A DNA stretch of 64,000 bases from the NCBI GenBank assembly GCA_030529505.1, contig JAUMWT010000002.1, positions 87,225-151,224 on the forward strand, in the 5' to 3' direction. Made by a program: the position numbers and the translations under genes. Under the pieces are notes generated by a model that was not told the origin of the DNA, did not search any database, and saw only the letters and a list, made by a program, of their open reading frames with translations. Origin of the DNA: Allobrachymonas sp. (GTDB taxonomy: Bacteria > Pseudomonadota > Gammaproteobacteria > Burkholderiales > Burkholderiaceae_C). Positions within the stretch are counted from its first letter, which is position 1. The number at the start of each line of letters is the position of its first letter. This document shows, piece by piece, positions 7,992-36,687 of this stretch.

Positions 7992-8154
7992 AGAGCCTGT
8001 TCACGATCTCATGGTGAGGTGATTGGAAATGGAGCGGGATGGGATGCAGGGCGCAAATTGCAGTGCATGGCCCGTGCTATGGACAAGATTTGCAACGCAG
8101 CAGACCGCCCGCTTCCATGTTCAGGCGCACGCGATGAGATCGTGAACAGGCGCT
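7992..8154. repeat. Palindromic-ended repeat, copy A
   Basis: 163-bp copy of the repeat family described in the findings. Left end AGAGCCTGTTCACGATCTC, right end GAGATCGTGAACAGGCGCT, i.e. inverted ends with one mismatch. The inside contains a conserved stretch around ATGGACAAGATTTGCAACGC and a small hairpin (CATGGC/GCTATG). The right terminus overlaps by one base the stop codon of the minus-strand ATPase gene. The 218 bp between the lipoprotein gene and this copy show nothing else. Confidence 0.85.
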
Positions 8155-10175
8155 TACGCCGCCACCGGACGGCGCACCAGATGGCTGCTGCCGGGGTGGA
8201 TGGGCAGCAGGGCGGTTTCGGGCTGCTTGCCCGCCGCATCGGGCGTGCCGTTCTGAGCGTCGTTGTAGCGTACGAAACGCTTGCGCTCGACCGTGGGATC
8301 GGGCACGGGCACGGCCGAGAGCAGGGCTTGCGTGTAAGGGTGCTGAGGGTTGGCAAAGAGATCTTCCACTTCGGCCGTTTCCACGATCTGGCCGCGGTAC
8401 ATCACGGCCACGCGGTGGGCGATGTGCCGCACCACCGACAGATCGTGTGCGATGAAGAGGTAGCTCATGCCCAGTTCAGCCTGCAAATCGCCCAGCAGAT
8501 TGATGATTTGCGCGCGGATGGACACGTCGAGCGCGGACACCGGCTCGTCGCAAATCACGAGCTTGGGGTTGAGCGCAATGGCGCGCGCGATGCCGATGCG
8601 CTGCAACTGCCCGCCCGAAAACTCGTGCGGGTAGCGGCTGGCGTGTTCGGGCGCCAGGCCCACGCGGCGCAGCAGCTCGTCGATGCGTTCGGCGCTGATG
8701 GGCAGCCCGTGGATGATGAAAGGCTCGCTCAGCAATTCGCGCACGGTGTAGCGCGGGTCGAGGCAGCCGTGCGGGTCTTGAAACACCATCTGCATGTGCT
8801 GGCGCGCGGTGCGCAGCTGCTCGCGGTTCATGCGCAGCAGGTCTTGCCCGCAGAAGCGCACAACGCCGCTGCTGGGCTCGTGCAGGCGCAGGATGCAGCG
8901 GCTCAGGCTGGATTTGCCGCAGCCCGATTCGCCCACAACGCCCAGCGTTTCACCGGCGCGCACCTGCAGGCTGACATTGCGCACGGCGTGTACGGCATGC
9001 GGTTTTTTCCAAGGCAAAAGCGGGCGCCCGCCGTGAAAGGTTTTGCACAAACGCTCCACTTCCAGCACGGGGGGCGCGTTGTTTGCATCGTCCGCGTGCG
9101 GGGTGTGGCTGTAGGGCAGGTGGTGGTCGCAGCCGTGCGCCTTGCCGGGGTGCCGGATGCTGGCGCTGCAGAACTGGCTGGGGTGGTGGCAGGCCGTGGC
9201 GTGGCCTTGATCATCTGCCTGGAGGGTGGGAACGGCGTGGCGGCAGGTGTCGCTGGCTTGCGCGCAGCGCGGGTGAAAGGCGCAGCCTGCAGGCAGATCG
9301 GTGAGCGAAGGCGGCTGCCCCGGGATGGGGTGCAGGCGCTGCTGGCGCTGGGCGTCGATGCGCGTGAGCGAATCGAGCAGGCCGTGCGTGTAGTGGTGGC
9401 GCGGGGCGCTGAACAGGGTTTTGACCGCGGCGCTTTCGACCACGCGCCCGGCGTACATCACCAGCACGCGGTCGGCCTGGCTGGCCACCAGGCCCAGATC
9501 GTGCGTGATGAGCACGAGCGCGGTGTTGCGCTTCTCGCGCAGGCGCGCGAGCAGTTCCATGATTTGCGCCTGCACGGTCACGTCCAGCGCGGTGGTGGGC
9601 TCGTCGGCGATGAGGATGCGCGGGTTGTTGGCCAGGGCCATGGCGATCACCACGCGCTGGCGCATGCCGCCCGAGAACTGGTGCGGGTAGTCGCGGGCGC
9701 GCTCTTGCGGGTTGGGAATGCCCACTTCGTGCAGCAGCTCCACGGCCTGGGCCAGCGCGGCTTTCTGGCTCATGCGCCGGTGCGAGCGAATGGCCTCGGC
9801 GATTTGCTCGCCCACGCGGTGCACGGGGTTCAGGGCCGAGAGCGGATCCTGAAACACCATGCCGATGTCTTTGCCGCGCAGCTGGCGGCGCTGGGCCTCG
9901 GGCAATTGCAGGATGTCGCGGCCATCGAGCAGCACCCGCCCGCTGATGTGCGCCGTTGGGGGCAGCAGGCCCATGATGCTCAGGGACGAAATCGATTTGC
10001 CCGATCCGCTTTCGCCCACGATGGCCAGGCACTCGCCCGCGTGCAATTGCCAGTTGGCGCCATTGACGGCATGTACCACGCCGTGGGCGGAGTCGAAAGC
10101 GACGGACAGATGCTGCACGTCCAGCAGCGGCGCGTGCTGGGGCGGGTGGTGGCAGTGGGAGCAGGTGGCGGGCAT
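8154..10175 (-). CDS. Fused double ATP-binding protein of a dipeptide/nickel-type ABC importer
   Basis: 673 aa with two complete ABC domains, corresponding to DppD and DppF joined in one chain. Domain 1 (about 20-270): Walker A GESGSGKS, signature SGGMRQRV, Walker [14 protein letters not shown] four-Cys oligopeptide-ABC C-terminal region follows ([16 protein letters not shown]...ATACHHP). Domain 2 (about 370-620): [38 protein letters not shown]. It energises the two permeases encoded upstream. The start lies one base after the stop of the MFS gene, so translation is probably coupled. The stop codon touches repeat copy A. The transported compound is not readable from the ATPase. Confidence 0.93.
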
Positions 10176-10176
10176 G

Positions 10177-11898
10177 TCAGGATGCGGCTGGCTTGGGAGG
10201 AGTGGATGAATCGCGGCCCAGTTGGTAGCGCATGATCAGCAGGATGATGATGCCGGCGCTGAAGGCCAGCAGCAGAATCGTCACGAACCAGGGCAGCGCC
10301 ACGTGTGCGCCGTGGCTGTCTTTGCTCAGCAGGGCGCCAATGCCCGTGCTGCCCAGCAATACGGCCAGGCCGCCAAAGGAATTGAGCAGGCCGTAGTAGG
10401 AGCCGAGCCGCCGCTCGTGCGCCAGGCGCGCCACCAGATCGTTGGTGAAGGGGTTGGCCAGCATCTTGCCCAGGGTGAACAGCACGATCATGGCCAGCGC
10501 GGGCGCGACGGCCCAGGGCTTGGCCAAAGGCGGCAGCAGGCTGGCCAGCGCAATGGCGGCAAAGCCCGCAGCCATGATCGAAAAGCCCATCGGAATGGCG
10601 CGCTTCCAGCCCAGGGTGCGGCGCGCCCAGGCCGTGAGGCTGACCTGTCCCACGATCACCATGCCCGAGCTGATGGCCATCATCACGCCCAGCATCTTGT
10701 CGTGGCCCATGGAGCGCGTGAGCTCCACCGGCAGCGCCAGATAGAGCTGGTTGTAGGCCAGCAGATAGGTGCTGTTGGCCAGCGCAAACCACAGGAACAT
10801 GCGGTTGCCCAGCACCTCGCCCCAGCCCTTGAGCACGGATTCGTTCCGGTGCAGCGGCGCCAGATCGGGGAACAGGAAATAATAAGCCAGCCACACGCCC
10901 ACGAAAATGCCCGCCGCCACCAGGCAGGCGAAGCGGTAATCCACCAGCAGCACCAGCGTGCCGATCAAGGGGCCGAGCGTGGCGCCCAGTTGCAGCGTGA
11001 CCGAACTCATGGCAAACACCTGCGTGCGCGGCAGGCCGGTGTCGTGCTCCACCTCGCCGGCGGCGCGGGCGATGGATGATTCCACCGCGGGCGAAAACAG
11101 CGCGGCGGCAAAGCCGATCAGCAACACCCCGGTGACCACGCCCGCGAGTTGCGTGCTCAGGCCCAGCATCACGAAACCGGCGATGCGAATGGGCACGCCT
11201 ACCAGAATCACCTGGCGCGGGCCGTAGCGATCAGTCAGCGTGCCGCCCAGCACAAACAGGCCCTGTTGCGAGAACGAGCGCAGGCCCAGAATCAGGCCGA
11301 TGGTGGCGCCGGGCAGGCCCAGCGTTTGCCCCAGATAGGTGGCCAGATAGGGCAGCACCATGTAAAAGCCGATGTTGAAACACAGCTGCGTGACCAGCAG
11401 CAGCTGCACATAGGTGGGCAGGCCCGAAAAATCGCGCAGCACGGCAAAGCGCGCCGCCAGGCCTGCCAGCAGCCCGGCGGGCGGTGTGGATGCAGAAGCA
11501 GGCGGCGTTGCGGGGGGCGAGGCGGTTGAGGCGCCTGGCTGGGCAGAGGTAGTGGTGGCAGCGGCAGTGGCTGGCCCTGCCGCCGTTGGCCTGCCGGCTT
11601 GTGCGCCGTGCGGCGCGGCATGAGGTGCCGGGGTGGGCGGCTCGTTGCCGCTTGTGCCATTTGCTTCATTTGCGCCACTGGTGTCATTTGCCGACGTGAC
11701 CGCTGCGCTTGCGGCAACTGCCCGGACATGCGCCGTCTCCCGGGCCGGGCCGTTGGGCTTGCCTGGCTTGGGGTGGCCTTGCTCGCCCAGGCCCGCTGCC
11801 GTTGCAGCCGCAGGGGCATCGGGCGCGGCCGCAGCAGTGTGCGCTGCGGCAGAAGGCTCGGCAGAAAACAGATCAGGGTGCGAGGGCTTGGCGCTCAT
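10177..11898 (-). CDS. MFS transporter with long Ala/Pro-rich N-terminal extension
   Basis: 573 aa. Residues 1 to about 160 are low complexity (Ala, Pro, Thr, Gly; NDTSGANEANGTSGNE) and contain no membrane helix; from PTYVQLLLVTQLCFN onwards there are about 12 hydrophobic segments with the MFS loop motif GGTLTDRYGPRQVI. Its ATG overlaps the stop of the upstream permease gene (ATGA), and its stop is one base from the ATPase start, so it is embedded in the ABC operon. By analogy with CntE of the staphylopine system it could export a compound that the ABC importer takes back up; that is inference. A downstream start that removes the extension cannot be excluded. Confidence 0.88.
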   Translation of the reverse strand: MSAKPSHPDLFSAEPSAAAHTAAAAPDAPAAATAAGLGEQGHPKPGKPNGPARETAHVRAVAASAAVTSANDTSGANEANGTSGNEPPTPAPHAAPHGAQAGRPTAAGPATAAATTTSAQPGASTASPPATPPASASTPPAGLLAGLAARFAVLRDFSGLPTYVQLLLVTQLCFNIGFYMVLPYLATYLGQTLGLPGATIGLILGLRSFSQQGLFVLGGTLTDRYGPRQVILVGVPIRIAGFVMLGLSTQLAGVVTGVLLIGFAAALFSPAVESSIARAAGEVEHDTGLPRTQVFAMSSVTLQLGATLGPLIGTLVLLVDYRFACLVAAGIFVGVWLAYYFLFPDLAPLHRNESVLKGWGEVLGNRMFLWFALANSTYLLAYNQLYLALPVELTRSMGHDKMLGVMMAISSGMVIVGQVSLTAWARRTLGWKRAIPMGFSIMAAGFAAIALASLLPPLAKPWAVAPALAMIVLFTLGKMLANPFTNDLVARLAHERRLGSYYGLLNSFGGLAVLLGSTGIGALLSKDSHGAHVALPWFVTILLLAFSAGIIILLIMRYQLGRDSSTPPKPAAS

Positions 11899-12788
11899 TT
11901 GGATTGGATTTCGACGTCGGTGGCGTTGGAGCCCAGCGCCGCAAACAGAATGCTGATGATCACGATGGTGGCCGCCGGGGCCACCAGCACCAGCGGGGCG
12001 CGGTCGGCGAAGCCGCGCGCTTCGGACAGCATGGCGCCCCACTCGGCCTGCGGCGGACGCGGGCCCAGACCCAGAAAGGACAGGCCGGAAAACGCCAGCA
12101 GCTTGCTGGGCAGGCGCAGCGCCATGTAGGTGAGCAGGGGGCGCGCGATATTGGGCCAAACGTGGTGCAGCAAAATCCGGCGCGAGCCAGCGCCCAGCGC
12201 AATGGCCGCTTCCACGTAACCGGCGGCCAGCGTGCGCGTGGTGAGCTGGTAGGCCAGGCGCGCAAACACCACCCAGCCCAGCGCCGTCATGCCCACGGCC
12301 AGCGTCAGCGTGCCGGTGCCAAAGGCGGCCACGAAGCCCAGCATGACGAGGATGTTGGGGATGATGACCAGGGTGTCGTTGAGCGTGAGCGCGACGGTGG
12401 CCAGCAGGCCGCCGCGCCAGGCCGCCAGGATGCCGATGGCCGCGCCGATGATGAAGCTCACCGCCAGCGACAGCGCGGCCACGCCCACCGACAGCACCGC
12501 GCCGTGCGCCAGCCGCGTGAGCACGTCGCGCCCGAACTGGTCGGTGCCCAGCGGGTGCTGCAGCGAGGCGGGCAAGAGCCGCTTGCCCAGCGCCACCTGA
12601 TTGGGGTCGTAGGGGCTGAACAGCAGCACGGCGGCAAACAGCAGGGCCAGCGCCAGCAGGCCGCCCAGCGGCAGCCAGAACTGCCACTGAAAAGGTTTTT
12701 TGCGCCGCGCCGGGCGCGCAGCCGCCGCAGGGGGCGGGCAGCCCGCAGCAGCGGGGGCGGATGAAGGGGAGGGGCAGCTCGTCGTCAT
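11895..12788 (-). CDS. ABC transporter inner-membrane permease, DppC/NikC type
   Basis: 297 aa. About six hydrophobic segments; the N-terminal region FSPYDPNQVALGKRLLPASLQHPLGTDQFGRDVLTRLAHGA is diagnostic for the DppC/OppC/NikC family, and the EAA-like loop EAAIALGAGSRRILLHHVWPNI contacts the ATPase. ATG at 12788 is used; an in-frame TTG at 12809 is possible. It lies 25 bp after the partner permease and overlaps the MFS gene by four bases. Confidence 0.92.
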   Translation of the reverse strand: MTTSCPSPSSAPAAAGCPPPAAAARPARRKKPFQWQFWLPLGGLLALALLFAAVLLFSPYDPNQVALGKRLLPASLQHPLGTDQFGRDVLTRLAHGAVLSVGVAALSLAVSFIIGAAIGILAAWRGGLLATVALTLNDTLVIIPNILVMLGFVAAFGTGTLTLAVGMTALGWVVFARLAYQLTTRTLAAGYVEAAIALGAGSRRILLHHVWPNIARPLLTYMALRLPSKLLAFSGLSFLGLGPRPPQAEWGAMLSEARGFADRAPLVLVAPAATIVIISILFAALGSNATDVEIQSK

Positions 12789-12813
12789 GGCAGGAAATGA
12801 ATGCGGCAAAGCC

Positions 12814-13746
12814 TCAGCGGTAGCGGATGCGGGGATCGATCAGCACGGCCAGCACGTCGCTCAACAGGCCCACGCCCAGGCCCGCCACCAGCGTGACGAA
12901 GAGGCCGCCCTGCAGCATGGGCAGGTCGAGGTTGGTCACGGCGTCGTACAGCAGATTGCCCATGCCGGGAATGGTGAAGATCACTTCGGTGACCACGCTG
13001 CCGCCCATCAGGCTGGCCAGAAAGGTGCTGCCAATGGCCATCGTGCCCGTGAGCGACACGCGCCCGGCGTGCCAGAGCACGCGCCACGGCGGCAGGCCCT
13101 TGGCGCGCGCCGTGCGGATGAAGGATTGCTTGAGCGCGTCCACCGTTTCGCTGCGCACCAGTTGGGCCAGCAGGCCCATGGGCACGAGCGAGGTGGCAAT
13201 GACCGGCAGCACCATGTGCCTGGGCGTTGCCCAGCCGCCCGTGGGCAGCCAGCGCAACTGCACGGCCAGAACCAGAATCAGCAAGGGCGCCAGCACGTGC
13301 ATGGGCACGGAAATGACCGTGCGCGTGAGCAGATTGAGCGCCCGGTCGAACCAGCCGCCTTGCCGCGCCGCGGCGAACAGGCCCAGCGGCACGGCCATGA
13401 TCACGGCCAGCGCCATGGCCAGGCCGCCGAGCAGGCCCGAGATGCCCAGCGCCTTCATCACCGCCGGCCGCACGGGCTTGCGGCTGGCGTAGCCGTAACC
13501 AAAATCGCCCTTGAGCAATTGTTTGGTGAAGCTGGCGTACTGCACCAGCAAGGGGCGATCCAGTGCCAGCTCTTCGCGGATGGCTTGCAGCACCTTCGGG
13601 TCGGGCTCGGACTCGGCGATGCGCGCGCGCAGCGTGGCGCGCGCCACATCGGTGCCGGTGAGCGTGGGCAGTGCAAAAACGAACACCGACAAAGCCAACA
13701 GCACCAGCGGCACGGCCACGAGTCGTCGCAGCAAAACGGCGAGCAT
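12814..13746 (-). CDS. ABC transporter inner-membrane permease, DppB/NikB type
   Basis: 310 aa. Starts MLAVLLRRLVAVPLVLLALSVFVFAL, the typical DppB first helix, followed by a periplasmic loop with FTKQLLKGDFGYGYASRKPV. The cytoplasmic EAA-type loop is RTARAKGLPPWRVLWHAGRVSL. It forms the heterodimeric channel with the product of the next gene. The start is 12 bp after the stop of the substrate-binding protein gene. Confidence 0.93.
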   Translation of the reverse strand: MLAVLLRRLVAVPLVLLALSVFVFALPTLTGTDVARATLRARIAESEPDPKVLQAIREELALDRPLLVQYASFTKQLLKGDFGYGYASRKPVRPAVMKALGISGLLGGLAMALAVIMAVPLGLFAAARQGGWFDRALNLLTRTVISVPMHVLAPLLILVLAVQLRWLPTGGWATPRHMVLPVIATSLVPMGLLAQLVRSETVDALKQSFIRTARAKGLPPWRVLWHAGRVSLTGTMAIGSTFLASLMGGSVVTEVIFTIPGMGNLLYDAVTNLDLPMLQGGLFVTLVAGLGVGLLSDVLAVLIDPRIRYR

Positions 13747-13758
13747 GGCACGCTTTCC

Positions 13759-15348
13759 TTAGGGGTTCAGCGTGGTGGTATGCGTCACCAGGTGCTGGTC
13801 CAGCGGATCGTGCACGGCCTCTTTCACGCGGCTGGAGAAGACGCGGCGCGAGGTGTCGTTGTACACCGGCAGGCCCACCTTGTGGTCGATCAGGTATTGC
13901 GCGGCCTTGGCGAAGATGGCGGCGCGGTCTTCGGGCTTCTCGGCCGTGGCCGCGCTTTGCCAGATGGCGTCAAAGTCTTTTTCGCAGAAGGCGTTCAGGT
14001 TGTAGGAACCTTCGCAGCCGAAGTCGCTGGCCAGGAAGCTGGCGGCATCGGGCATGTCGGTGTAGAAGCTGCGCGAGAGCAGCACCAGATCGTGCTCCTT
14101 GGCCATGACCTTGGGCTCGAACACGGTGTTGTAGTCCACCACGTCCAGCGTGATGGCAAAGCCGCCTTGCTCCAGATTGTCTTTGATGACGTTGGCGGTG
14201 GCGGCCAGTTCGGGGCGGCCGGGGTAGGTCATGAGGTTGAGCTTCAGGTCTTCGGGCTTGACGCCGGATTCGGCAATCAGCTTCTTGGCCTGATCCAGAA
14301 AGTCGGCCGGGCGGGCGGCGGCCTTGGGCGCCCAGCTCACGCCGCCGAAGTAGCCGGCGGCCGGCGCGCCCATGCCTTCGAGCACGGCGGCCACGATGGC
14401 GTCGCGGTCGATCAGCAGGTCAATGGCCTGGCGGATTTTCTCGTTCTTGAGCGTGGGCTTGGTGAAGTTGACGTAGAGCGTGGAAGCGCGCGGCAGCTCG
14501 ATGTTGTCGGCCACCAGGGCGCTGTCTTTCTTGGCCTCGAGCACGTTGTTGGGCGCGATGGAGTTGGCCACGTGCACTTCGCTCACTTTCAGGGCATTGA
14601 AGCGGGCGGCTGCATCAGCGATGAAGCGCACTTCCACACCGGCCAGTTGGGGCTTGCCGCCCCAGTAGTCGTCAAAGCGTTCCAGCGTCAGGCCCACGCC
14701 GGCTTCGTGTTTGCTGATTTTGTAGGGGCCGCTGCTGAAGCCGATGGGGTTGACGGGGTCGCTGGCGAAAGCGCCCTTGGCCAGAATGGCGGTGCTCGGG
14801 CCGCCCAGGCGCAGGGGCAGGACGGGGTCGGGCTTGGTGGTGGAGATTTTGACGGTGTCGGCATCCACCGCTTCGGCCACGAGGCCCGTGCCTTTGAGGG
14901 CGCGCGGCGGCGTGGCGGCTTTCATGATGTGGCTCAGCGAGGCGACGACGGCTTCTGAATCCAGCATGCTGCCGTCGTGGAATTTCACGTCGGTGCGCAG
15001 GTCGAATTCCCAGCTCGTGTCGCCAGTGCGGCGCCATTGCGTGGCCAGGGCGGGATGGGCCTTGCCGTCGAGCGTGACGCGCACCAGGGCTTCGGTCGCG
15101 CCGGCTTGCATCAGGTTGTAGGCGGCGTCGCCTTCAATGGCCAGTGTGCCTCTGTCTTTGAAGGACGTGGCAATGCGCAGGACGTTGTCGCCCGCAGGCG
15201 CGGCGCTGGCTGCAGGGGCCGAGCCGGGCGCGGAGGCGGCTGGCGGCGCGGCTTTTTCGCCGCAGGCCACCAGCGCCACGGCCAGCGACAGGGCCGAAAG
15301 CCCGTAGGCAAAGGGGCGGCTGACAAAAGAATGTTTGGAGGTTTGCAT
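13759..15348 (-). CDS. DppA/NikA-family substrate-binding lipoprotein of the ABC importer
   Basis: 529 aa, family 5 extracellular solute-binding protein. N-terminus MQTSKHSFVSRP then a hydrophobic core ending LAVALVAC: lipobox with acylated Cys29, followed by an Ala/Pro-rich linker (residues 30-55). Family landmarks: WEFDLRTDVKFHDGSMLDSEAV, GPYKISKHEAGVGLTLERFDDYWGGKP and KNEKIRQAIDLLIDRDAIV. The start at 15348 follows an AAAGGTGA-type ribosome binding site; an in-frame upstream ATG at 15423 would bury the signal peptide and is rejected. The ligand could be a peptide, a metal chelate or a small organic molecule; with methyltransferases and an MFS exporter in the same block, a self-made chelator is a reasonable hypothesis. 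Confidence 0.92.
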   Translation of the reverse strand: MQTSKHSFVSRPFAYGLSALSLAVALVACGEKAAPPAASAPGSAPAASAAPAGDNVLRIATSFKDRGTLAIEGDAAYNLMQAGATEALVRVTLDGKAHPALATQWRRTGDTSWEFDLRTDVKFHDGSMLDSEAVVASLSHIMKAATPPRALKGTGLVAEAVDADTVKISTTKPDPVLPLRLGGPSTAILAKGAFASDPVNPIGFSSGPYKISKHEAGVGLTLERFDDYWGGKPQLAGVEVRFIADAAARFNALKVSEVHVANSIAPNNVLEAKKDSALVADNIELPRASTLYVNFTKPTLKNEKIRQAIDLLIDRDAIVAAVLEGMGAPAAGYFGGVSWAPKAAARPADFLDQAKKLIAESGVKPEDLKLNLMTYPGRPELAATANVIKDNLEQGGFAITLDVVDYNTVFEPKVMAKEHDLVLLSRSFYTDMPDAASFLASDFGCEGSYNLNAFCEKDFDAIWQSAATAEKPEDRAAIFAKAAQYLIDHKVGLPVYNDTSRRVFSSRVKEAVHDPLDQHLVTHTTTLNP

Positions 15349-15720
15349 GGCTGTGAAATCACCTTTCTTTTGGGTCAATGGATGCGCTGACAAAGCAGAA
15401 AAAACATCCCGTGCTGCATCCATCGTTCAAAGCGCGGGATAGAGAAAAGAATTTGAAAAGAACCGGCATCGGGGGCCTGAGCCGTTTGGGACGATGGCTT
15501 GAGCGGCCTGGCGAATCCGGCGGCAACCCCGGCTTGCAGTGATTGGGCATGGGATAACGGCTTGGCTGCGGCGGCTGGAGGGCGGCGAGCCGCGCAGGGC
15601 GGTTTGCGCCAAGCCAGGCCGTTGCGGGGCTCGGGCGCGGCTCGCGTCCGGCTGCAGCTTCCGACCGCGTTCAACCCAGGTTCCATGCCAGTGTGCCGCC
15701 ACCATCATCAATCCCCTGGC
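15349..15720. other. Gap between the bidomain methyltransferase and the binding-protein gene
   Basis: 372 bp with no credible gene. It is the only sizeable gap in the minus-strand block 8.15-18.0 kb, so it may hold a second promoter for the ABC genes. Near 15413-15440 an ATCCCG/CGGGAT inverted pair is present, too widely spaced to call a terminator. Confidence 0.4.
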
Positions 15721-17277
15721 TCATGCCTTTGGCGCATGGCCCCAAACGACGTAGGTTTCGCCATCGTCGTGCTCGCTGCCCATGGTGCGCAGATTCATGG
15801 CGTGCACTTCGTCGAGCAAGCGCCACTGCACGTTGGTGTAGCCCGCGGCTTCGAGCAGGGCGGCCACCTTGGGCGCGTGGTTGTCTTGCATCAGCGGCAG
15901 GTTGTTGCGGGTGCGGGCGTTGTACACCTCGTGCCACAGCTCGTACCAGGGCTTGCCCACGTAGTCGCTTTGCTTCCAGCCCTTGGCGAACCAGGTGCCG
16001 TCAAACACGGCCAGCACGCCGCCGGGCTTGAGCAGCTTCTTGGCCTCGGTGAGGGTGCGCATGGGGTCGGGCAGGGTCCAGAACAGGTAGCGGCTCACCA
16101 CCGCGTCGTAAGAGGCAGGCTCGCCCGTGGGGGTGGTGGCATTGCCCAGTTCAAACGTCACGTTGTTCAGGCCCTGCGCCTGCGCGTCCTGGCGGGCGCG
16201 CTTGAGCATGTTTTCGGCGGTGTCGATGCCGCGCACCTGATGGCCCATGTGCGCCAGGTTCAGGCTCACGAAGCCGGGGCCGCAGCCCAGGTCGAGCACA
16301 TTGGCGGGCGCGGGCGGCAGCACGCTGGCGAATTCCTTGCGCCAGGCCGCATCGGCTTCTTCGCGGTTGTAGCCGGGGGCGTGCTGCACTTCGGTGTCGT
16401 ACTCCTGCGAGCGTTTGGGGTCGTTCCAGTAATTGAGGATTTGCTCGGTAACGGAATTTTTGCCCTGCTCCACAAAGGGCCGGCTCTTGATGCCCATGAG
16501 CACGCGGTCGTCAAAGCGTTGCCAGATGGTGTTGACTTCGGTGCAGCCGGCCTGGCGCAAGGCCAGCGCGTGCAGGCTCAGGGTGTTGAGCTTGGAGGTG
16601 TGGCGGTCGCCGTAGAGCTTGTCGGCCTCGGCCTGGCGCTGGGCGCGCTCGGCAAAGGCGGGCTTGAGCGCGGCTTCCTGCTCCATCGCCTGCCACCAGG
16701 CATCCCAGTCCAGCACGTCGGGCTGGGCCAGCGAGCGTTTGAGGGCGCGGTCTTTGTCGGCCTCGGCCAGATGGCGCGAGACGCGGTCGGGCAGCTCGTA
16801 GGCGAAATGGTCGCCATTCAAAAACATGCCGCCTTCGGGCATGAGGGCGGCAACGTCGCTGTAAGCCTTGATGAGCTGCTCGGGCCGCAGCCAGTGCAGG
16901 GCGGTGGTGGAAACGGCCGCGTCGATCTGCTGCGTGGGCAGTTGCGCCGTCCAGTCGGGCGCGCGCATGTCCACGTCCACGATCGTGACGCGATCGCCAA
17001 AACGCGCCAGAAAATGGCGCGCCATGGTCAGCAGCACGGGGTCGGAATCGACCGCAATGGCCTTGGCCAGCGGAAAGGCATCGAGCATGCGCTGGGTGAG
17101 CGAACCCGGGCCGCAGCCCAGGTCGATGAAGGTGAATTGCGTGCCCACATGGTCGGCCAGGGCCTGCTGCATCACGGCAAAGCGGTCTTCGCGAAATTCG
17201 ATGTAGGCGGTCTGCTGCCGGTCCCACGAGGCCAGCAGGGCGGCCCAATCGGTGTTGGCGTTGTTTGAGGCGTTCAT
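15721..17277 (-). CDS. Two-domain SAM-dependent methyltransferase
   Basis: 518 aa made of two class I methyltransferase modules. Domain 1 (about 20-260) has motif I FIDLGCGPGS at 50-59 and the acidic post-motif VDSDPVLL. Domain 2 (about 275-518) has motif I VLDLGCGPGF near 325 and the YLFWTLPDPM and LKPGGVLAVFDGTW segments. Domain 2 is clearly homologous to the whole neighbouring methyltransferase (shared LPPAP, LGCG.GF, WTLPDP, LAVFDGTW and LPLM.DN). ATG at 17277 overlaps the upstream stop by ATGA; a start at 17331 would overlap more and is not used. The substrate is unknown; its position suggests it modifies the compound handled by the transporter genes downstream. Confidence 0.87.
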   Translation of the reverse strand: MNASNNANTDWAALLASWDRQQTAYIEFREDRFAVMQQALADHVGTQFTFIDLGCGPGSLTQRMLDAFPLAKAIAVDSDPVLLTMARHFLARFGDRVTIVDVDMRAPDWTAQLPTQQIDAAVSTTALHWLRPEQLIKAYSDVAALMPEGGMFLNGDHFAYELPDRVSRHLAEADKDRALKRSLAQPDVLDWDAWWQAMEQEAALKPAFAERAQRQAEADKLYGDRHTSKLNTLSLHALALRQAGCTEVNTIWQRFDDRVLMGIKSRPFVEQGKNSVTEQILNYWNDPKRSQEYDTEVQHAPGYNREEADAAWRKEFASVLPPAPANVLDLGCGPGFVSLNLAHMGHQVRGIDTAENMLKRARQDAQAQGLNNVTFELGNATTPTGEPASYDAVVSRYLFWTLPDPMRTLTEAKKLLKPGGVLAVFDGTWFAKGWKQSDYVGKPWYELWHEVYNARTRNNLPLMQDNHAPKVAALLEAAGYTNVQWRLLDEVHAMNLRTMGSEHDDGETYVVWGHAPKA

Positions 17278-18023
17278 TTTTTCTCCTGGGGTTTGAAGCC
17301 GCGCACGACGTACAGGCTGTCTTGCGGCCATTCCTGGCTGTGGTATTGGCGATAGACGGCGTTGGCGTGCGCCATCATTTCGAACTGCACGTCCACGAAG
17401 CCCGCGTCTTGCAGGATGGCGGCCACTTTTTCGGGCGGGTTGTCGTGCATCAGGGGCAGGCTGGCCTGCACCTCGGGCGTGTAGGAATCAAGCCAGATCT
17501 TGTCGCGCGGCTTGCTGGGGTCGCGCTGCTGCCACATCTCGCGGTTTTTGTACCAGGTGCCATCGAACACGGCCAGCATGCCGCCCGGGCGCAGCAGTTG
17601 CAGCGCGCCGCGCGCGGCGGCCAGCGGGTCGGGCAGCGTCCAGTACACCCAGCGGGCGGTGACGACGTCGAAATGATTGGCGGGCAGGCTGGCCTGCGGC
17701 TGCATGGCATTGCCTTGCACGAAGCGGATGTCGAGCTGGCGATCCGCGGCTTTCTGGCGGGCGGCGGCGAGCATGTTCTCGCCCTGATCCAGCCCCGTGA
17801 CCCGATGCCCCAGCCCGGCCAGCAATACGCTGGCAAAGCCCGTGCCGCAGCCGATGTCGGCGATTTGCACGGGCGCAGGGGGCAGATAGCGTTGGAATTC
17901 TTCGCGCCAGACGGCGTCGTCGCGTTCCACGCCAATGCCTTCGGCATGGCCCGCGTCGTATTCATCGACGCAAAGATGTGAATTCCAGAAGGCATTGACC
18001 TGTCGGGTGGCGCTGGCAGTCAT
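17274..18023 (-). CDS. SAM-dependent methyltransferase
   Basis: 249 aa, single class I methyltransferase fold: motif I IADIGCGTGF (54-63), acidic residue GLDQGENML, motif IV-like ARWVYWTLPDP and motif VI LRPGGMLAVFDGTWYKN. It is a paralogue of the C-terminal half of the next gene, so the pair probably arose by duplication and fusion. It is the first gene of the minus-strand block. A candidate operator lies just upstream (18053-18080). The substrate cannot be deduced. Confidence 0.87.
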   Translation of the reverse strand: MTASATRQVNAFWNSHLCVDEYDAGHAEGIGVERDDAVWREEFQRYLPPAPVQIADIGCGTGFASVLLAGLGHRVTGLDQGENMLAAARQKAADRQLDIRFVQGNAMQPQASLPANHFDVVTARWVYWTLPDPLAAARGALQLLRPGGMLAVFDGTWYKNREMWQQRDPSKPRDKIWLDSYTPEVQASLPLMHDNPPEKVAAILQDAGFVDVQFEMMAHANAVYRQYHSQEWPQDSLYVVRGFKPQEKK

Positions 18024-18052: not shown

Positions 18053-18080
18053 GTATGACACATGGGTGAATGTATCACCC
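18053..18080. promoter_or_regulatory. Candidate operator upstream of the methyltransferase/ABC block
   Basis: Two overlapping patterns lie 30-57 bp before the first gene. GGGTGA-N5-TCACCC (18064-18080) is a perfect six-base inverted repeat. GTATGA-N16-TCACCC (18053-18080) has one half-site identical to the E. coli NikR operator (GTATGA-N16-TCATAC) at the exact spacing, with the other half matching at four of six bases. Both are seen in the sequence; the regulator is inference. Confidence 0.4.
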
Positions 18081-24397: not shown

Positions 24398-25378
24398 ATG
24401 GCTTTTGTGTTTATGCGCACCCTCGATCCCGAAAAGCAAGAGGCCAAACGCCGCCACATCATGGATGCGGCCATACGCTGTTTTGGCAAAAACGGTTTTC
24501 ACGGCACCTCGACCAACGCCATTTGCGCCGAAGCGGGCATGAGCCCCGGCAACCTGTTCCATTACTTTGCGAGCAAGCAGGCGCTGATTGCCGCGATCAT
24601 TGAAAGCGAGCACGCGGCCTATGCCGCCCGCTTTGCCGAATTGCGCACCGAGCCGGATGCTTTTGTGGCTTTGGAAAAAATCGCCCGCGCCGTGCTGGAT
24701 CAATGCAGCAACCCGCTCTATGCCCGGCTGTGGCTGGAAATTGCCGCTGAAGCCGCTGCAAACGACGAGATCGGTCAGGTCATGGCGGCCAGCACGATTG
24801 CCTACCAGAAAGACCTGGCCGCCTTGGTGCGGCGCGGGCAAGCGGCCGGGCAAATCGCGGCGGACTTGAAGCCGAAAGACGTGGCCATGTGGCTGTTGGC
24901 CATGTCCGACGGTTTTGCCGTGCAAATGCTGGGCCGATCCAGCGACAGCCTGGCCAAGCACGCCGAGGTGCTGGTGCCGCTGGTGCGCCGTTTGCTGATG
25001 CCGCAAGCGACGGGTGGCCGCGGCGCTGCGCGCGCGCCGGGTGAAACCGGCAGGCGGAAAACAAGCCGCCAAACAGAACGTCAAATAGGACGCCAAACAA
25101 GCCGAGAAGCAAGCGATCAAGATTCGACAAGCCTGCGAAAAACAGCCGCACGTTCAGAGGGCGCACGTGCAGCAACGCCACGAGCAGCCGCCGCGCGCAG
25201 GGCCAGCGAAGGCGCTGCCAGCCCAAGCGTGGCAGCACGCCCAAGGGGCAGCCGGGCCGCCGGCTCCGTCAGCAAGGTTCGCACCACAGCCCAGACCACA
25301 GGGCCGCGTCCAGAGGCGAGTGCGCCCCAGGCGACGCAGCGAACGCGACACGCCAGCACAGTCAGGAGGTCAACATGA
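24398..25378 (+). CDS. TetR-family repressor (CecR/YbiH-like) with basic C-terminal tail
   Basis: 326 aa. The N-terminal helix-turn-helix is IMDAAIRCFGKNGFHGTSTNAICAEAGMSPGNLFHYFASKQAL (about 21-63), followed by an all-helical ligand domain up to about residue 200. The last 125 residues are low-complexity and very basic (repeated RQT, RAA, ARRAS), which the family normally lacks. Its ATG is one base past a near-perfect operator, and its stop overlaps the HlyD start (ATGA). The gene order that follows (HlyD, OMF, ABC fusion, permease) mirrors E. coli cecR-ybhGFSR. An ATG at 24413 is an alternative start. Confidence 0.88.
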   Translation: MAFVFMRTLDPEKQEAKRRHIMDAAIRCFGKNGFHGTSTNAICAEAGMSPGNLFHYFASKQALIAAIIESEHAAYAARFAELRTEPDAFVALEKIARAVLDQCSNPLYARLWLEIAAEAAANDEIGQVMAASTIAYQKDLAALVRRGQAAGQIAADLKPKDVAMWLLAMSDGFAVQMLGRSSDSLAKHAEVLVPLVRRLLMPQATGGRGAARAPGETGRRKTSRQTERQIGRQTSREASDQDSTSLRKTAARSEGARAATPRAAAARRASEGAASPSVAARPRGSRAAGSVSKVRTTAQTTGPRPEASAPQATQRTRHASTVRRST

Positions 25379-26373
25379 ATCCACATCGCTTGCGGCCCAA
25401 GCTGGGCCTGATGCTGGCCGCCGCCTTGACGCTGGCCGGGGCGGCTTGGTATGCACATCAGGCACACAGTGCCAAGGCGCTGCCTGCGGGCTTTGTCCAA
25501 TCCAACGGCCGCTTGGAGCTCAAACGCCTGGACGTGGCCAGCCTCTACCCCGGTCGCGTGCAAGCCATGCGTGTGGACGAAGGCAGCGAGGTCAAAGCCG
25601 GCGATGTGCTGGCCGAGTTGTCGTCTGACGTGAGCAGCAGCCGTTTGGAGCTGGCCCGCGCGCAGAGGCAGCGCGCGCAAGAAAGCAGCGCCCGGGCCGA
25701 GGCCGAAATCAAGGCCCACGGCCAGCGCTTGAAAGTGGCGCAGCTGGAGTTGGATAACGCGCTGAAGCTGCGCCGCGACGAGCTGGTGTCTGACAGCGAA
25801 GTGAGCAAACGCCGGGCCGAGCGCGACAGCGCCGCTGCTGCCGTGCAGGCCGCGCGCGCGGCCCAGGCCGAATCGCTGGCCGCGGTGCAGGCCGCGCAGG
25901 CACAGATGAACGAGGCGGACTCAGCCAACAGCGACATGCTCATCCGCAGCCCGCAAGACGGGCGGGTGGAATACCGCCTGGCCGAAGCCGGCAGCGTCAT
26001 CGCCGCAGGCAGCAAGGTGGTGAGCTTGCTCGATCCGGCCGATGCGTCGATGCATCTCTTTCTGCCCAATACGCAGGCCAGCCGCCTGAAAGTAGGGGAC
26101 GAGGCGCGCATCGTGCTCGATGGCTGGGACGCCGTGTGGCCCGCGCGCATCAGCTTCATCGCGTCGGAAGCGCAGTTCACGCCCAAAAACGTGGAAACCG
26201 CCAACGAGCGTGCCAAGCTCGTTTTCAAGATCCGGCTCAAGCTGCCGCCCGAGGTGGCGCGCCAATACGCGGGCTGGCTCAAAGGCGGCATGACGGGCAA
26301 TGGCTATGTGCGCACCGACGCCGCGCAATCCTGGCCCGCGCAGCTGGCCGTGAAGCTGCCGCAATCAAGGTGA
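25375..26373 (+). CDS. HlyD-family periplasmic adaptor (YbhG-like)
   Basis: 332 aa membrane-fusion protein. One N-terminal anchor helix (LGLMLAAALTLAGAAWYAHQA), a biotinyl-lipoyl-like half domain (RLDVASLYPGRVQAMRVDEGSEVKAGDVLAEL), a long Ala/Arg/Glu-rich coiled-coil hairpin (about 85-185), the second lipoyl half (MLIRSPQDGRVEYRLAEAGSVIAAGSKVVSL) and a beta-barrel domain. It would link the inner-membrane ABC exporter to the outer-membrane channel encoded next. Translationally coupled to the regulator by a 4-bp overlap. Confidence 0.9.
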   Translation: MNPHRLRPKLGLMLAAALTLAGAAWYAHQAHSAKALPAGFVQSNGRLELKRLDVASLYPGRVQAMRVDEGSEVKAGDVLAELSSDVSSSRLELARAQRQRAQESSARAEAEIKAHGQRLKVAQLELDNALKLRRDELVSDSEVSKRRAERDSAAAAVQAARAAQAESLAAVQAAQAQMNEADSANSDMLIRSPQDGRVEYRLAEAGSVIAAGSKVVSLLDPADASMHLFLPNTQASRLKVGDEARIVLDGWDAVWPARISFIASEAQFTPKNVETANERAKLVFKIRLKLPPEVARQYAGWLKGGMTGNGYVRTDAAQSWPAQLAVKLPQSR

Positions 26374-26385
26374 AGGGGCCGGATC

Positions 26386-27876
26386 ATGCGCATGAAAACG
26401 CCATCACACAGCAGGGCCGCCAGCGTGTTGGCCAGCACCGTTGCACTGGCGCTGGCGGCTTGCAGCAGCACCCAGGTGGATTTGCGCAGCCAGGTGGCGC
26501 TGCCGCAAAACTTTGAGCAAGCATCTCAAGCCAACGGGCAGAAAAATCCCCAAGCCGCGCTGGATATCAGCCGCTGGTGGCAGCAGTGGAACGATCCGGT
26601 GCTCAGCCAACTGATCGAGCAGGGCTTGCAGCACGGCCACGACGCGCGCATCGCCCGCAGCCGCCTGCAAGAGGCGCGTGCCCAGAGCCGCCTGGCCTTT
26701 GCCGATCAAGGCCCCATGGCCGGTGCCAATGCCAGGCTGTCCCGCTTGGATGGGCGCATCAGCAACCCGCTGGAGGATTCCAGTCGTGCGGCCCTGCGGC
26801 AATTGCCTGCGGCCTCCAGTCTGAGCAGCGACAGCTTCAAACTGGAAGGCAGCAGCCTCACGGGCGGCCTCACTGCTTCGTGGGAGCCCGACTTTTTTGG
26901 CCAAAAACGCAGCGATGCCGACGCCGCCCGCCACGCTGCCCTGGGCGTGCAAGAGCAACTGCACGGTGCGCAATTGCTGCTGGCGGCTGATATGGCCGAG
27001 CACTACTTTCAGGCCCGCGCCGCGCAAAGCCGCTTGCACAGTTCTGAGCGTCACATCGCCACGCTGCAACGCCTGCTGCAATACGCGCAAGGGCGCTTTC
27101 AGGCCGGGCAAGTCAATGCCTACCATGTGCAGCAAGTGCGCATGCAGCTGGCGGCCGCGCAAGCCCGCCACAGCACCATCGGGGCCGAATACGCCGCACA
27201 CGTGCGCAGCATCGCCGTGCTGGCGGGGCAAACGCCACAGGGCTTTCGCCTGCCCGATAGCGGCGTGGATGTATTGGCCGTGCAAGCCGCAGCGCCCGCT
27301 GGCACTACTCCGCAGGGCCTGCTGGAGCGCCGCCCCGATCTGCGCGCGCATGCCGCGCAGGTACAGGCCCACGCGGCCAAACTGGCCAGCGCCAAGGCCG
27401 ATTTGCTGCCGCGCTTTTCGATCGAATTTTTGGGGCAGGGCAGCATTGGCGTGGACAGCGCCACCGACTTGGAAGGCTGGGGCAGCTTGCTGCGCTTGGG
27501 TATTCAGGTGCCGCTGTTCACCAACGGGCGCATTCAGGCCAACATCGCCGCGGCCGATGCGCGCCTGCAAACCGCCTTGCTGCAATACGACCAGACCCTG
27601 CTGCGCGCGCTGGGCGAAGTGGATAGCGCCTACCAGGCCCATGCGGCGCTGCTGCGCCAAAACACGCTGCTGGCCAGCGCCCATCAGCAGGCAGAGCGGC
27701 AGGTGCGTGCTGCCGAGCAACTCTTTCGCCACGGCCAGCACACGCTGGACGATGCCTTGCGCGCCCGCCTGAACGAAGCTGATCTGCACAGTCAATTAAC
27801 ACAGTCGCGTCTGAGCCAAGCCCAAGCCGCCGTGGCCTTGTACAAGGCTCTGGGCGGAGGATGGAGTGCAGAGTGA
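26386..27876 (+). CDS. Outer-membrane efflux lipoprotein, NodT/OprM family
   Basis: 496 aa. Signal peptide with lipobox VALALAACSST; then the typical N-terminal DISRWWQQWNDPVLSQLIEQGLQHGHDARIARSRLQEARAQ and the internally repeated OEP architecture, including the LLERRPDLRAHAAQVQAHAAKLASAKADLLPRFSI signature near residues 310-345. It provides the TolC-like exit duct for the HlyD/ABC system. E. coli ybhGFSR lacks its own channel gene, so this operon is more self-contained. The end overlaps the next gene by 4 bp (GTGA) or 16 bp depending on start. Confidence 0.92.
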   Translation: MRMKTPSHSRAASVLASTVALALAACSSTQVDLRSQVALPQNFEQASQANGQKNPQAALDISRWWQQWNDPVLSQLIEQGLQHGHDARIARSRLQEARAQSRLAFADQGPMAGANARLSRLDGRISNPLEDSSRAALRQLPAASSLSSDSFKLEGSSLTGGLTASWEPDFFGQKRSDADAARHAALGVQEQLHGAQLLLAADMAEHYFQARAAQSRLHSSERHIATLQRLLQYAQGRFQAGQVNAYHVQQVRMQLAAAQARHSTIGAEYAAHVRSIAVLAGQTPQGFRLPDSGVDVLAVQAAAPAGTTPQGLLERRPDLRAHAAQVQAHAAKLASAKADLLPRFSIEFLGQGSIGVDSATDLEGWGSLLRLGIQVPLFTNGRIQANIAAADARLQTALLQYDQTLLRALGEVDSAYQAHAALLRQNTLLASAHQQAERQVRAAEQLFRHGQHTLDDALRARLNEADLHSQLTQSRLSQAQAAVALYKALGGGWSAE

Positions 27877-30800
27877 GCAAGAACGACGCGGCTCATCCAG
27901 TCAGCCCGATTGATCACCCCGACCGGGCTGGGGATCCTGAATCGGGCGGCGCACAGACAAAAGCCAGCGGGCATGTCCGTGCCCAGCACGCACCGGCGGT
28001 TGTTGTCCAATCCGTCTCTCACCGCTACGGGCCAACACAGGCGCTGGATGCGGTGTCACTCACCATTCCGCGCGGGGGCACGGTGGGCCTGATCGGGCCA
28101 GATGGCGTGGGCAAATCCACGCTGCTGGGCCTGATCGCGGGCGTGCGCCGCATTCAGACCGGAACGGTTGAAGTGCTGGGCGGCGATATGGCCAACAAGC
28201 GGGTGCGCCAGCAGCTGTCGCACCGCATCGCCTACATGCCGCAAGGGCTGGGCAAGAATCTGTACCCGACGCTGAGCGTGCACGAAAACGTGGATTTTCA
28301 CGCGCGCCTGTTCGGTTTGAAGGCGCGTGAGCGCAAGGCGCGCATCCGGCACTTGCTCGCCGCCACGGGGCTGGCACCGTTTGCCGGGCGGGCAGCGGGC
28401 AAGCTCTCGGGCGGCATGAAGCAAAAACTCAGCCTGTGCTGCGCGCTGGTGCACTCGCCCGATTTGCTGATTCTGGATGAGCCCACCACGGGCGTGGACC
28501 CGCTCTCGCGCCGCCAGTTCTGGGCGTTGGTGCGCAGCCTGCGCGCGCAAACCGCGCAGATGACAGTGATTGTTGCCACCGCCTACATCGACGAGGCCGA
28601 GCAGTTCGAGCGCTTGCTGGCCATGGACGATGGCAAGCTGCTCGTCAACCAGCCCACGCAAGCGGTGCTGGCGCAGTACCAAGCTGCCAGTCTGGAAGAG
28701 GCCTACATCCAGATGCTGCCGCCCGAAAAACGCCAGGGCGTGGGCCACCTGGAAATCACGCCCTTTGTGCCCGACCCGCAATCGCCGCCCGCGATCGAAG
28801 CGCACGGGCTGACCAAACGCTTTGGCCGCTTCACGGCGGTGGACCATGTGAGCTTTCGCATCGAAAAGGGCGAGATCTTTGGCTTCCTCGGCGCCAATGG
28901 CTGCGGCAAATCCACCACCATGAAAATGCTCACGGGCCTGCTCGATGCGAGCGCGGGCAGCGCTCAATTGCTGGGCCGCCCCGTGGATGCCAGTGACAGG
29001 AGCAGCCGCCTGCGCGTGGGCTATATGTCGCAGGCGTTTTCGCTGTACGAAGAGCTGAGCGTGCGCCAGAACCTGCAATTGCATGCACGGCTGTACCAAA
29101 TGGGCGCGGCCGGTGCGCAAGCCGTGCGCGATGCGCTGGTGCAGTTTGACCTGGAGCATGTGGCCGACACCAAGCCCGAAGCCCTGCCACTGGGCATGCG
29201 CCAGCGCTTGCAACTGGCAGCGGCCTGTCTGCACCGGCCCGAGGTGCTGATTCTGGACGAGCCTACCTCGGGTGTGGACCCTGCCGCGCGCGACTTGTTC
29301 TGGCGCATCTTGGTGCGGCTGTCGCGGCAAGATCGCATGACCATTTTCGTTTCCACCCACTTCATGAACGAGGTGGAACGTTGCGACCGCATGTCGCTGA
29401 TGAACCGCGGGCGCGTGCTGGTGATGGGCACGCCAGCCGAAGTGCTGGCCCAAAGCGGGCAGCCCAATACCGAAGAAGCCTTCATCCACTTCTTGCAGCA
29501 AGATGCCGCGCGCGAGGCCGCCGAACTGAGAGCCGATATGCAGGCCGAGATGGCGGGCGAGACGGTGTACGCCAGAGCGGATGAAGCTGCAAAGGAAAGA
29601 ACGATCGACGCAGGCGCTGAGCGACCGGAGCGTGTAGCAGCTGCCGCGAGTAATAAGCCAGGCGCAGCGGATGCAGCAGAAGCAGCAGAAGCGGCGGGTA
29701 CCGAAACTGTGCGTGATGATGAAGCCCAGGCATCAACAGCCATGCATGCGCCGCCTGAAGCACAGCCCGAAACAGTGCCCAACGCCATGTCTGCTGTTGC
29801 GGTTTGCGCTTCTGCCTCTTTGTGCACGCGGGCTGCGACTGCCCGCAAGCACAGCCTGCGTGATCGTTTGGGCACGGTCTGGACCTTTGCCCGGCGCGAA
29901 ACCAAGGAGTTGCTGCGCGATCCCATCCGTCTGTTCTTTGCCGTGATGGGGCCAGTCATCATGCTCGCAGCCGTGGGCTGGAGCATTTCTTACGACGTGA
30001 GCCATCTGCGTTTCAGCCTGCTGGATCGCGACCAAAGCGCGGAAAGCCGCCGTCTGGCCGAATCGTTTCGCGGCTCGGCCTATTTTGTGGAAGGTCCGCC
30101 CGTGGCATCGCAGGCCGAAGCCGAGGCTGCCTTGCAAGGTCGGCAGGCCGATCTGGTGCTGGACATCGCTCCCGGCTTTGGCCGCGATGTGGCCCTGGGC
30201 CGCCAGCCGCTGCTGGCGATCTACATCGATGGCACCGATCCTTTCAACGCCAACACCGCTGCAGGCTATGCCACGGCCTTGCTGGAAGGCTACAAGCGCG
30301 AGTTGCTGGCCGAGCGCGGCATCGAGCTGCCCACGCTGGCGGCGCTGGAGTCGCGCTTCATGTACAACCCCGACTTCAAAAGCACCCACGGCGTGGTGCC
30401 CAATATCCTGGTGCTGGTGCTGGTGATGATTCCGGCCATCATGACGGCGCTGTCGGTTGTGCGCGAGCGCGAAATCGGCTCCATCGCTAATCTGTACGCC
30501 TCGCCCGCCTCGGTGGCGCAATACCTGCTGGGCAAGCAACTGCCCTATCTGGCGATGGGGCTGCTCAACTTCGTGATGTTGAGCGCGATGGTGGTGCTCT
30601 GGTTCGGCGTGCCGCTCAAGGGGTCTTTCTTGGCGCTGCTGCTGGGCGCGCTGCTGCTGGTGGGGGCCTCCACCGGGCTGGGGCTCTTGGTGTCCTCATT
30701 CACGCGATCGCAAACGGCCGCCTTCTTCATCGCCGCGCTGGGCACCATGATTCCCACGCTCAACTTCTCCGGCATCATCCATCCGCTCTCGAGCATGGAA

Positions 30801-30980: not shown

Positions 30981-31096
30981 TCGTGAGCCAAGCACCATGT
31001 AGCGCAAGCCAAGCAGGCCCGGCCAAACGCCCAGGCCAGCCGCCGCAGGTTCTGCCAAGCCCTGATTGGACGAGGCCCATTGAACAAGGAAAGCCC

Positions 31097-31789: not shown

Positions 31790-31838
31790 GGCCACTTTCC
31801 CACTCGCCCAAGTGTGAAACAACTGCGAAAGATCCGCC

Positions 31839-36618: not shown

Positions 36619-36687
36619 AAACCGTTGTGGCCAGCAGTGCCAAGAAGGCGATTGTTTCGGCCAGCCACATTGCACAAGGAGATCGAC

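Follow-up and report, generated by a model that had tools for sequence, protein, structure and literature searches.

What could a run of genes do in which methyltransferases stand beside an ATP-binding cassette (ABC) importer and a major facilitator superfamily (MFS) transporter? Such a run, seven genes on the minus strand, occupies positions 8154..18023 of a 64,000-nucleotide stretch of contig JAUMWT010000002.1 from Allobrachymonas sp. (GCA_030529505.1), hereafter the window. The initial annotation had read it as a possible metallophore-like system for export and re-import of a new small molecule, perhaps a metal chelator built or capped by methylation. The results presented here point to a probable cassette for the uptake of metal chelates, with methyltransferases of its own that would act on the metal-carrying molecule. 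Thus, the metal-chelate part of the earlier view is supported by the importer type, by an EitD-like MFS transporter and by methyltransferase families found beside metal importers, whereas a new exported metallophore is possible only.

Three methyltransferase domains are encoded at the upstream end of the block. MT1 (17274..18023, minus strand, 249 amino acids) matches Methyltransf_11 in Pfam with 77.7 bits, and MTAB (15721..17277, minus strand, 518 amino acids) is a double methyltransferase with two Pfam methyltransferase stretches. Its MT-A half covers about residues 1-260 (coded 16501-17277) and its MT-B half, a paralogue of MT1 (about 43% identity), covers about residues 261-518 (coded 15721-16500), so that the fusion joins both methyltransferase families. 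S-adenosylmethionine (SAM) motif I (DxGxGxG), read from alignments, is present in MT1 (DIGCGTG) and in both halves of MTAB (DLGCGPG in each), and all three are predicted to be class I SAM-dependent methyltransferases; the MT1 family carries the further signature RWVYWTLPDP / VFDGTW. In Brachymonas, an MT1 orthologue (66%) and a separate MT-A gene (73-74%) occur in genome G004, and G001 (62% complete) has a fused MTAB (79%) and no MT1 match; therefore, the common core consists of MT-A plus at least one MT1-type domain. The predicted structure of MTAB was unusable, with a mean predicted local distance difference test (pLDDT) score of 40, and no relatives of these methyltransferases were found in viral contigs.

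Genes of the MT-A and MT1 families are repeatedly found next to metal importers, which are of the Nik, Fec/Eit and Znu types. In the genome that holds the window (G000), an MT1 paralogue (59%) on contig C52 has a ZnuABC/Azt-like transporter on one side and a TonB receptor on the other, the locus (L038:4439-10919) reading methyltransferase, ZnuC/AztA-like ATPase, ABC-3 permease, ZnuA-like protein, MT1 paralogue and TonB receptor. This receptor has a siderophore receptor as its best model, below the cut-off, and is present in one of nine Brachymonas genomes. A perfect dyad, TTAACATAAATGTTAA, lies upstream of the first gene of the C52 locus. When 359 Pseudomonadota genomes were searched with an MT1 profile, three strong own matches were followed by seven alphaproteobacterial matches of 231-261 bits in six genomes, and the rest reached 98 bits at most. 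For each of the seven, a FecB/FecCD-type importer gene lies no more than 200 bases away. Among the 20 next-ranked loci, taken as controls in rank order from more than 140 weaker MT1 matches listed, none has a permease or binding protein resembling the reference importers within 5 kb (p 1.1e-6, uncorrected for relatedness). Six of the seven methyltransferases form one orthologous group shared with Sinorhizobium meliloti pSymB (59-68% to the S. meliloti protein). The seventh, a second copy in genome G1069, lies directly behind EitA-EitB-EitC, and the neighbourhood of the other copy in that genome includes a COG0523 gene and a Zur-like regulator.

Five of the 118 plasmid records with an MT1 match were opened, the fifth being the unannotated S. 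meliloti record, and the MT1 relatives of Sagittula, S. meliloti and Chelatococcus adjoin FecB-FecCD-FecE. The iron-related ABC pair SMb21431/21432 of S. meliloti, described in the available part of PMC2848241, could not be tied to this locus in the unannotated record and was dropped. A Burkholderiales family (f20) has clear MT1 matches in eight genomes (82-116 bits; a ninth, at 64 bits, lies outside the neighbour count), which adjoin FecBCD genes in three, larB-larC-larE in one, TamB-like genes in three (checked by Pfam in one of these) and nothing recognised in one. The larB-larC-larE genes are nickel-pincer cofactor genes. At the lar locus (L085:5062-8605, genome G396), the MT1-family gene adjoins larB, the two open reading frame (ORF) calls overlapping slightly, and larC and larE follow; it is possible that an MT1-family methyltransferase is an unnoticed partner of these cofactor genes.

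At a threshold of 1e-8, relatives of MT-A were found in only six of 72,556 plasmid records, all of them actinobacterial, and among 378 Pseudomonadota genomes a single genome beyond the own one passed 1e-18, with 74 bits. Streptomyces NBC_01201 shows the order binding protein, two permeases, ATPase and MT-A, and its binding protein, 25% identical to that of the window, again has Opp5A_nikA as best family. In Nonomuraea, MT-A is flanked by EitA-like and EitB-like genes. The S. clavifer copy is shortened; it has a salicylate synthase on one side and, on the other, a zinc island containing COG0523, rpmF and an importer of the Klebsiella type. Two further records are unannotated; in one, a COG0523-like gene lies about 5 kb from MT-A. 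In a tree, the Brachymonas MT-A groups with that of Nonomuraea (96/89), and the simplest reading is that MT-A was horizontally gained from Actinomycetota.

The importer of the block comprises a family 5 substrate-binding lipoprotein (SBP, 13759..15348, 529 amino acids, SBP_bac_5), the permeases P1 (12814..13746, NikB/Opp2B type) and P2 (11895..12809, NikC/Opp2C type), both BPD_transp_1, and a fused double ATPase with OppD-like and OppF-like halves (8154..10175, two ABC_tran and two oligo_HPY domains), all on the minus strand. By eye, the start of the SBP resembles a signal peptide, and a lipobox-like LVAC can be made out. Its best NCBIfam model is Opp5A_nikA with 239.4 bits (cut-off 600), against 92.6 bits for DppA (cut-off 1005) and 65.9 bits for CntA (cut-off 800); P1 scores 223.7 bits for Opp2B (cut-off 350) and 207 for NikB (cut-off 447), and P2 scores 202.4 bits for Opp2C (cut-off 300), nickel (Opp2) models being the best for both permeases. 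The ATPase passes the cut-offs for nikD/nikE and for Cnt ATPase models alike and does not discriminate. The best PDB sequence matches of the SBP are the Bacillus halodurans nickel-binding protein 3t66 and Staphylococcus aureus NikA, at about 23-24% identity. The structure prediction that the initial annotation had suggested gave a model with a pLDDT of 66, for which Foldseek ranked the S. aureus binding proteins 3rqt and NikA 4xkr first and second, although such a search separates family-5 proteins, DppA among them, by small differences. In the alignment, the position of DppA Arg355, which holds the peptide carboxylate, is Tyr in the SBP, and DppA Asp408 aligns with D431. A dipeptide or glutathione importer was set aside on these family scores and the alignment, and they support the view that the importer is of the metal (Nik/Opp5A) type. 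Six SBP relatives from viral contigs were used solely for the model alignment.

Tandem family-5 binding proteins (two, or three in G004) precede one ABC importer at four other places in the genus, namely G000:C55 (L122:7416-15232), G001:C48, G004:C39 and G007:C236. A methyltransferase beside binding proteins in G007 (L041) was considered as a second case of the linkage and dropped, its identity being 27-32% on a long branch, with no methyltransferase at the homologous locus C55 of the own genome.

The MFS transporter (10177..11898, minus strand, MFS_1) shares 42% identity with EitD of pAPEC-O2-ColV (363 residues aligned) and 42% with the MFS protein of Klebsiella pLVPK-type plasmids (361 residues). 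An EitD model is absent from the four NCBIfam families that it matches, and it is also MdtH-like. On the plasmids opened, its relatives stand with FecBCD-type eit genes (ColV plasmids of Escherichia coli, plasmids of Cronobacter) or in a set of ATPases, fused permeases and an SBP of the Nik type (Klebsiella pLVPK-type plasmids, Rahnella); two gammaproteobacterial genomes (L118, L120) share the latter arrangement. In Klebsiella, zigA, hisI and a repressor with Zur as best model (below cut-off) are found about 3.5 kb from this set. Related importers that lack this type of MFS gene beside them are found beside zigA (L105) and beside a TonB receptor (L104), and a Gordonia match among metal-efflux genes does not fit the importer pattern. 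Taken together, the similarities support placing this transporter with EitD of metal-importer operons. It also carries a low-complexity Ala/Pro/Thr-rich N-terminal tail of about 160 residues ahead of the first MFS match.

Several known systems resemble the block in part. The S. aureus Nik system, in which Opp5A is paired with Opp2BCDF, and B. halodurans 3t66 are the best family and structure matches of the SBP, and the Nik system is the best family of both permeases; however, the SBP of the block shares low identity with them and stays below the cut-offs. Clusters of the staphylopine and pseudopaline (cnt) type pair an MFS protein with an Opp-type metal importer, as here, but their characteristic enzymes were not found, as the annotation had already noted for the block. 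In the draft genome (2.39 Mb, 83.5% complete), the nicotianamine-synthase-like family PF03059 reached 10.5 bits at best (cut-off 27.1) and the opine dehydrogenase family PF10100 had no match at E<=1; the SBP, moreover, is not CntA-type. An opine system was set aside because neither CntL nor CntM was found there. EitABCD of ColV and Cronobacter plasmids, in which EitC is also the name of an NCBIfam model, provides an MFS relative (EitD), and EitABC operons of Nonomuraea and G1069 contain MT-A and MT1 relatives, whereas the importer of the block is of the Nik/Opp type (SBP_bac_5, BPD_transp_1) and not FecBCD-type. The Klebsiella pLVPK cluster has the same transporter components (SBP 31% identical), but its permeases are fused, its ATPases are separate and the 17-19 kb examined contain no annotated methyltransferase; PMC2770081 lists a pLVPK cluster as Zur-regulated.

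Published work offers parallels, drawn here from excerpts and by description only. A class I SAM methyltransferase of Mycobacterium smegmatis is Zur- and zinc-dependent (PMC7174638). In Paracoccus denitrificans, a Ni/dipeptide-type ABC operon that includes COG0523 responds to zinc and is bound by Zur, and the type-11 methyltransferase pden2984, weakly zinc-responsive, is numbered near the ABC genes pden2980-2982 (PMC5387054). No paper on methyltransferases in such cassettes was found in the open-access literature, and the available parts of PMC10563805 and PMC9409073 hold nothing on these proteins.

Which metal might be carried? A candidate operator, the inverted repeat GGGTGATACATTCACCC (18064..18080), lies 40 bp upstream of MT1, and the repeat GTGATACATTCAC is found upstream of MT1 in both the window and G004. 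Its outer arm bases differ and yet stay complementary (GGG..CCC in the window, TTG..CAA in G004, where it reads TTGTGA..TCACAA). G000 contains the 11-base core once and G004 twice, and G001 lacks it; with one mismatch allowed, the core has one match in the window, as do 27 of 100 shuffles, and a reversed control pattern occurs once in G000. Since such counts also arise in shuffles and with the reversed control, the case for the operator is its shared position upstream of MT1. Neither among nine methyltransferase/FecB spacers nor among nine sequences upstream of Brachymonas genes did the alphaproteobacterial Zur box, as given in PMC5387054, exceed plain base shuffles. Six Brachymonas upstream sequences were scanned for Irr-like and Fur-like boxes with no convincing result: the best Irr-like box, before MT1, scored 9/14 (reached in 12 of 300 shuffles), and the best Fur-like box, before the G001 MTAB, 13/19 (14 of 300). 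In the rhizobial-type spacers, scored with an Irr-like consensus, four of nine contain an Irr-like box at <=1/500 shuffles, a fifth reaches 15/500 and four have none. The four boxes point to iron for the rhizobial methyltransferase/FecB loci, and among the other neighbours, COG0523 and Zur suggest zinc and lar suggests nickel; the importer of the window appears to lean towards nickel or zinc by family and neighbours. An element, GTCAAnnnATATC, is common to the methyltransferase-FecB spacers of L079, L173, L175 and L078 and in three of these spacers it adjoins the Irr-like box.

Herein, we propose how such a cassette might work. The SBP and the ABC importer would bring in a transition metal bound to a small ligand, the cytosolic MT-A, MT-B and MT1 domains would methylate the imported ligand, and the EitD-type MFS transporter would export the methylated product. 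This order, in which methylation after import loosens the metal and the spent ligand is discarded, is slightly preferred over export and re-import, though neither is more likely than not, and fits those loci where a methyltransferase accompanies an importer and an EitD-type exporter was not seen; in the relative loci opened overall, such an exporter is seldom seen beside methyltransferase and importer, synthesis genes not having been searched for systematically. Methylation could serve as a release step because Zn(II) and Ni(II), unlike ferric iron, cannot be freed by reduction. That MT1 and MT-A generally serve importers of the Nik, Fec/Eit and Znu types as "strip-and-discard" enzymes, with methylation as the metal-release step, is conceivable and somewhat doubtful.

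The opposite order, in which the methyltransferases build or cap a chelator from primary metabolites, the MFS transporter sends it out and the loaded form returns through the Nik-type importer, is only slightly less likely and is favoured by several observations. The G001 genome retains MTAB with the MFS gene and has not retained the importer, the S. clavifer MT-A copy adjoins a salicylate synthase and a zinc island, and the staphylopine-type clusters that share the pairing of MFS and Opp-type importer include some with PF13649 methyltransferases, as reported in part of PMC7438024. Likewise, a methyltransferase and an MFS protein of Mycobacterium avium paratuberculosis with consecutive numbers are strongly induced by zinc starvation according to an excerpt of PMC4298942, the likeness being one of description. 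However, the block holds no backbone-forming enzyme, the draft genome yielded neither nicotianamine synthase nor opine dehydrogenase, the seven alphaproteobacterial methyltransferase/importer stretches contain no EitD-type MFS match (synthesis genes were not looked for there), and three annotated plasmid loci show no recognised synthesis gene beyond an aminotransferase in Chelatococcus. A plain nickel/zinc or peptide importer with an MFS drug pump, to which the methyltransferases are chance neighbours, would agree with the 372 bp between MTAB and the SBP gene, with the lack of conservation of the full order and with SBP relatives outside the genus that lack such neighbours. This explanation is nevertheless unlikely, as MT-A is again found with a Nik-type importer in Streptomyces, MT1 relatives accompany FecBCD or Eit genes in alphaproteobacteria, and the own-genome paralogue accompanies a ZnuABC-like transporter and a TonB receptor.

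The remaining two explanations concern the role of the methyltransferases themselves. If they were metal-independent stand-ins under metal starvation, like HisI and FolE2 in Zur regulons, their placement inside eit operons and the fusion of two of them would be unexpected, and neither the larBCE link nor the rhizobial Irr-like sites are specific to zinc; this role is thus quite improbable, even though Zur regulons often put such paralogues beside transporters and COG0523 genes, as stated in an excerpt of PMC2770081, and the M. smegmatis enzyme mentioned above depends on Zur (PMC7174638, in part). A detoxification of foreign chelating antibiotics, with thiol or nitrogen donors capped by the methyltransferases and the product expelled by the MFS transporter, is the least probable and would leave the importer unexplained. 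It might be suggested by the MdtH-like character of the transporter and by the heterocyclic toxin methyltransferase Rv0560c and thiol methyltransferase 1 among the PDB relatives of MT-B and the MT1 profile, but these matches are weak, do not head the list and share the fold of class I enzymes in general.

Several results weigh against the proposed metal-chelate uptake cassette. The full seven-gene order is seen solely in the own genome, with parts in two congeners, and the block contains no outer-membrane receptor. The SBP, P1 and P2 fall under every curated NCBIfam cut-off listed, and the nearest SBP relatives after that of G004 (34-37%) belong to ABC operons without methyltransferase or MFS genes, two of which adjoin catabolic genes. 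As to the linkage, six of the seven alphaproteobacterial matches are not independent because they form one orthologous group, and importer detection was limited, in cases and controls alike, to proteins resembling the reference set. No recognised metal importer or lar gene adjoins four of the eight f20 matches, no metal importer adjoins the Natrinema plasmid methyltransferase, and MT-A of Streptomyces NBC_01717 belongs to an ATP-grasp/MFS cluster that lacks an ABC importer. The S. clavifer copy, annotated with 186 amino acids, covers residues 79-264 and has no SAM motif I. Finally, no Zur- or Fur-like site stood out upstream in Brachymonas.

If the uptake cassette is real, two uncharacterised methyltransferase families travel with metal importers across phyla, and the release of redox-inert metals from their carriers becomes testable, or metallophores are indicated that are made without the pair of nicotianamine synthase and opine dehydrogenase. 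If either order of events is true, genome scans keyed to CntM could find systems that are now missed, and the limit of a CntM-based search is acknowledged in the available part of PMC7438024 itself.

The layout of the block was also examined. Pfam confirmed the claimed domains of all seven minus-strand genes, but not the spacing described as mostly 1-4 bp overlaps: MT1/MTAB and P2/MFS overlap by 4 bp, and the others are separated by gaps (P1-P2 4 bp, SBP-P1 12 bp, MFS-ATPase 1 bp), with spacing depending on the start codons picked by the analyst. The distance of 372 bp between MTAB and the SBP gene implies that the block may comprise two transcription units. A MarC-like gene (Pfam) and a DacB-like gene lie upstream of the block, and a ZapE-like gene lies downstream. 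The neighbourhood search suggested earlier did not find the seven-gene order outside Brachymonas, one of the two outcomes that the initial annotation had named as counting against its reading, and inside the genus the order varies; SBP orthologues occur in two of nine genomes and MTAB, whole or in part, in three of nine, gene calls in this genus having been made by similarity since a simple gene caller picks antisense ORFs in its GC-rich sequence. The seven-gene order is thus a rare Brachymonas assembly, and the wider finding is that of the two importer-linked methyltransferase families. In G001, the MFS gene follows MTAB directly, with no SBP, P1 or P2 in between. Past the gene downstream of this MFS, a degenerate ABC ATPase-like stretch (L039:540-720, by eye) may be the remnant of a lost importer.

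Between Brachymonas genomes, the ratio of nonsynonymous to synonymous substitution rates (dN/dS) is about 0.18-0.23 for MT1, MT-A, MTAB, SBP, P1 and MFS, the six gene pairs with a congener copy for comparison (P2 and the ATPase have none), at 66-83% protein identity, and about 0.37 for the paralogue pair MT1/C52. As judged from these ratios, the block genes are under purifying selection and are more than chance ORFs. The GC content of third codon positions is 0.81-0.89 in the block genes and 0.81-0.86 in five neighbouring genes, and the overall GC content of the block (0.668) is higher than the window mean (0.628); codon composition does not clearly mark the block as foreign. Elsewhere in the window, a run on the plus strand (24398-32966) encodes a TetR regulator, an HlyD-type adaptor, an outer-membrane efflux protein and ABC-2 exporters, and an ORF at 36625-38280 fuses methionine sulfoxide reductase A and B domains behind an N-terminal extension of about 220 residues.

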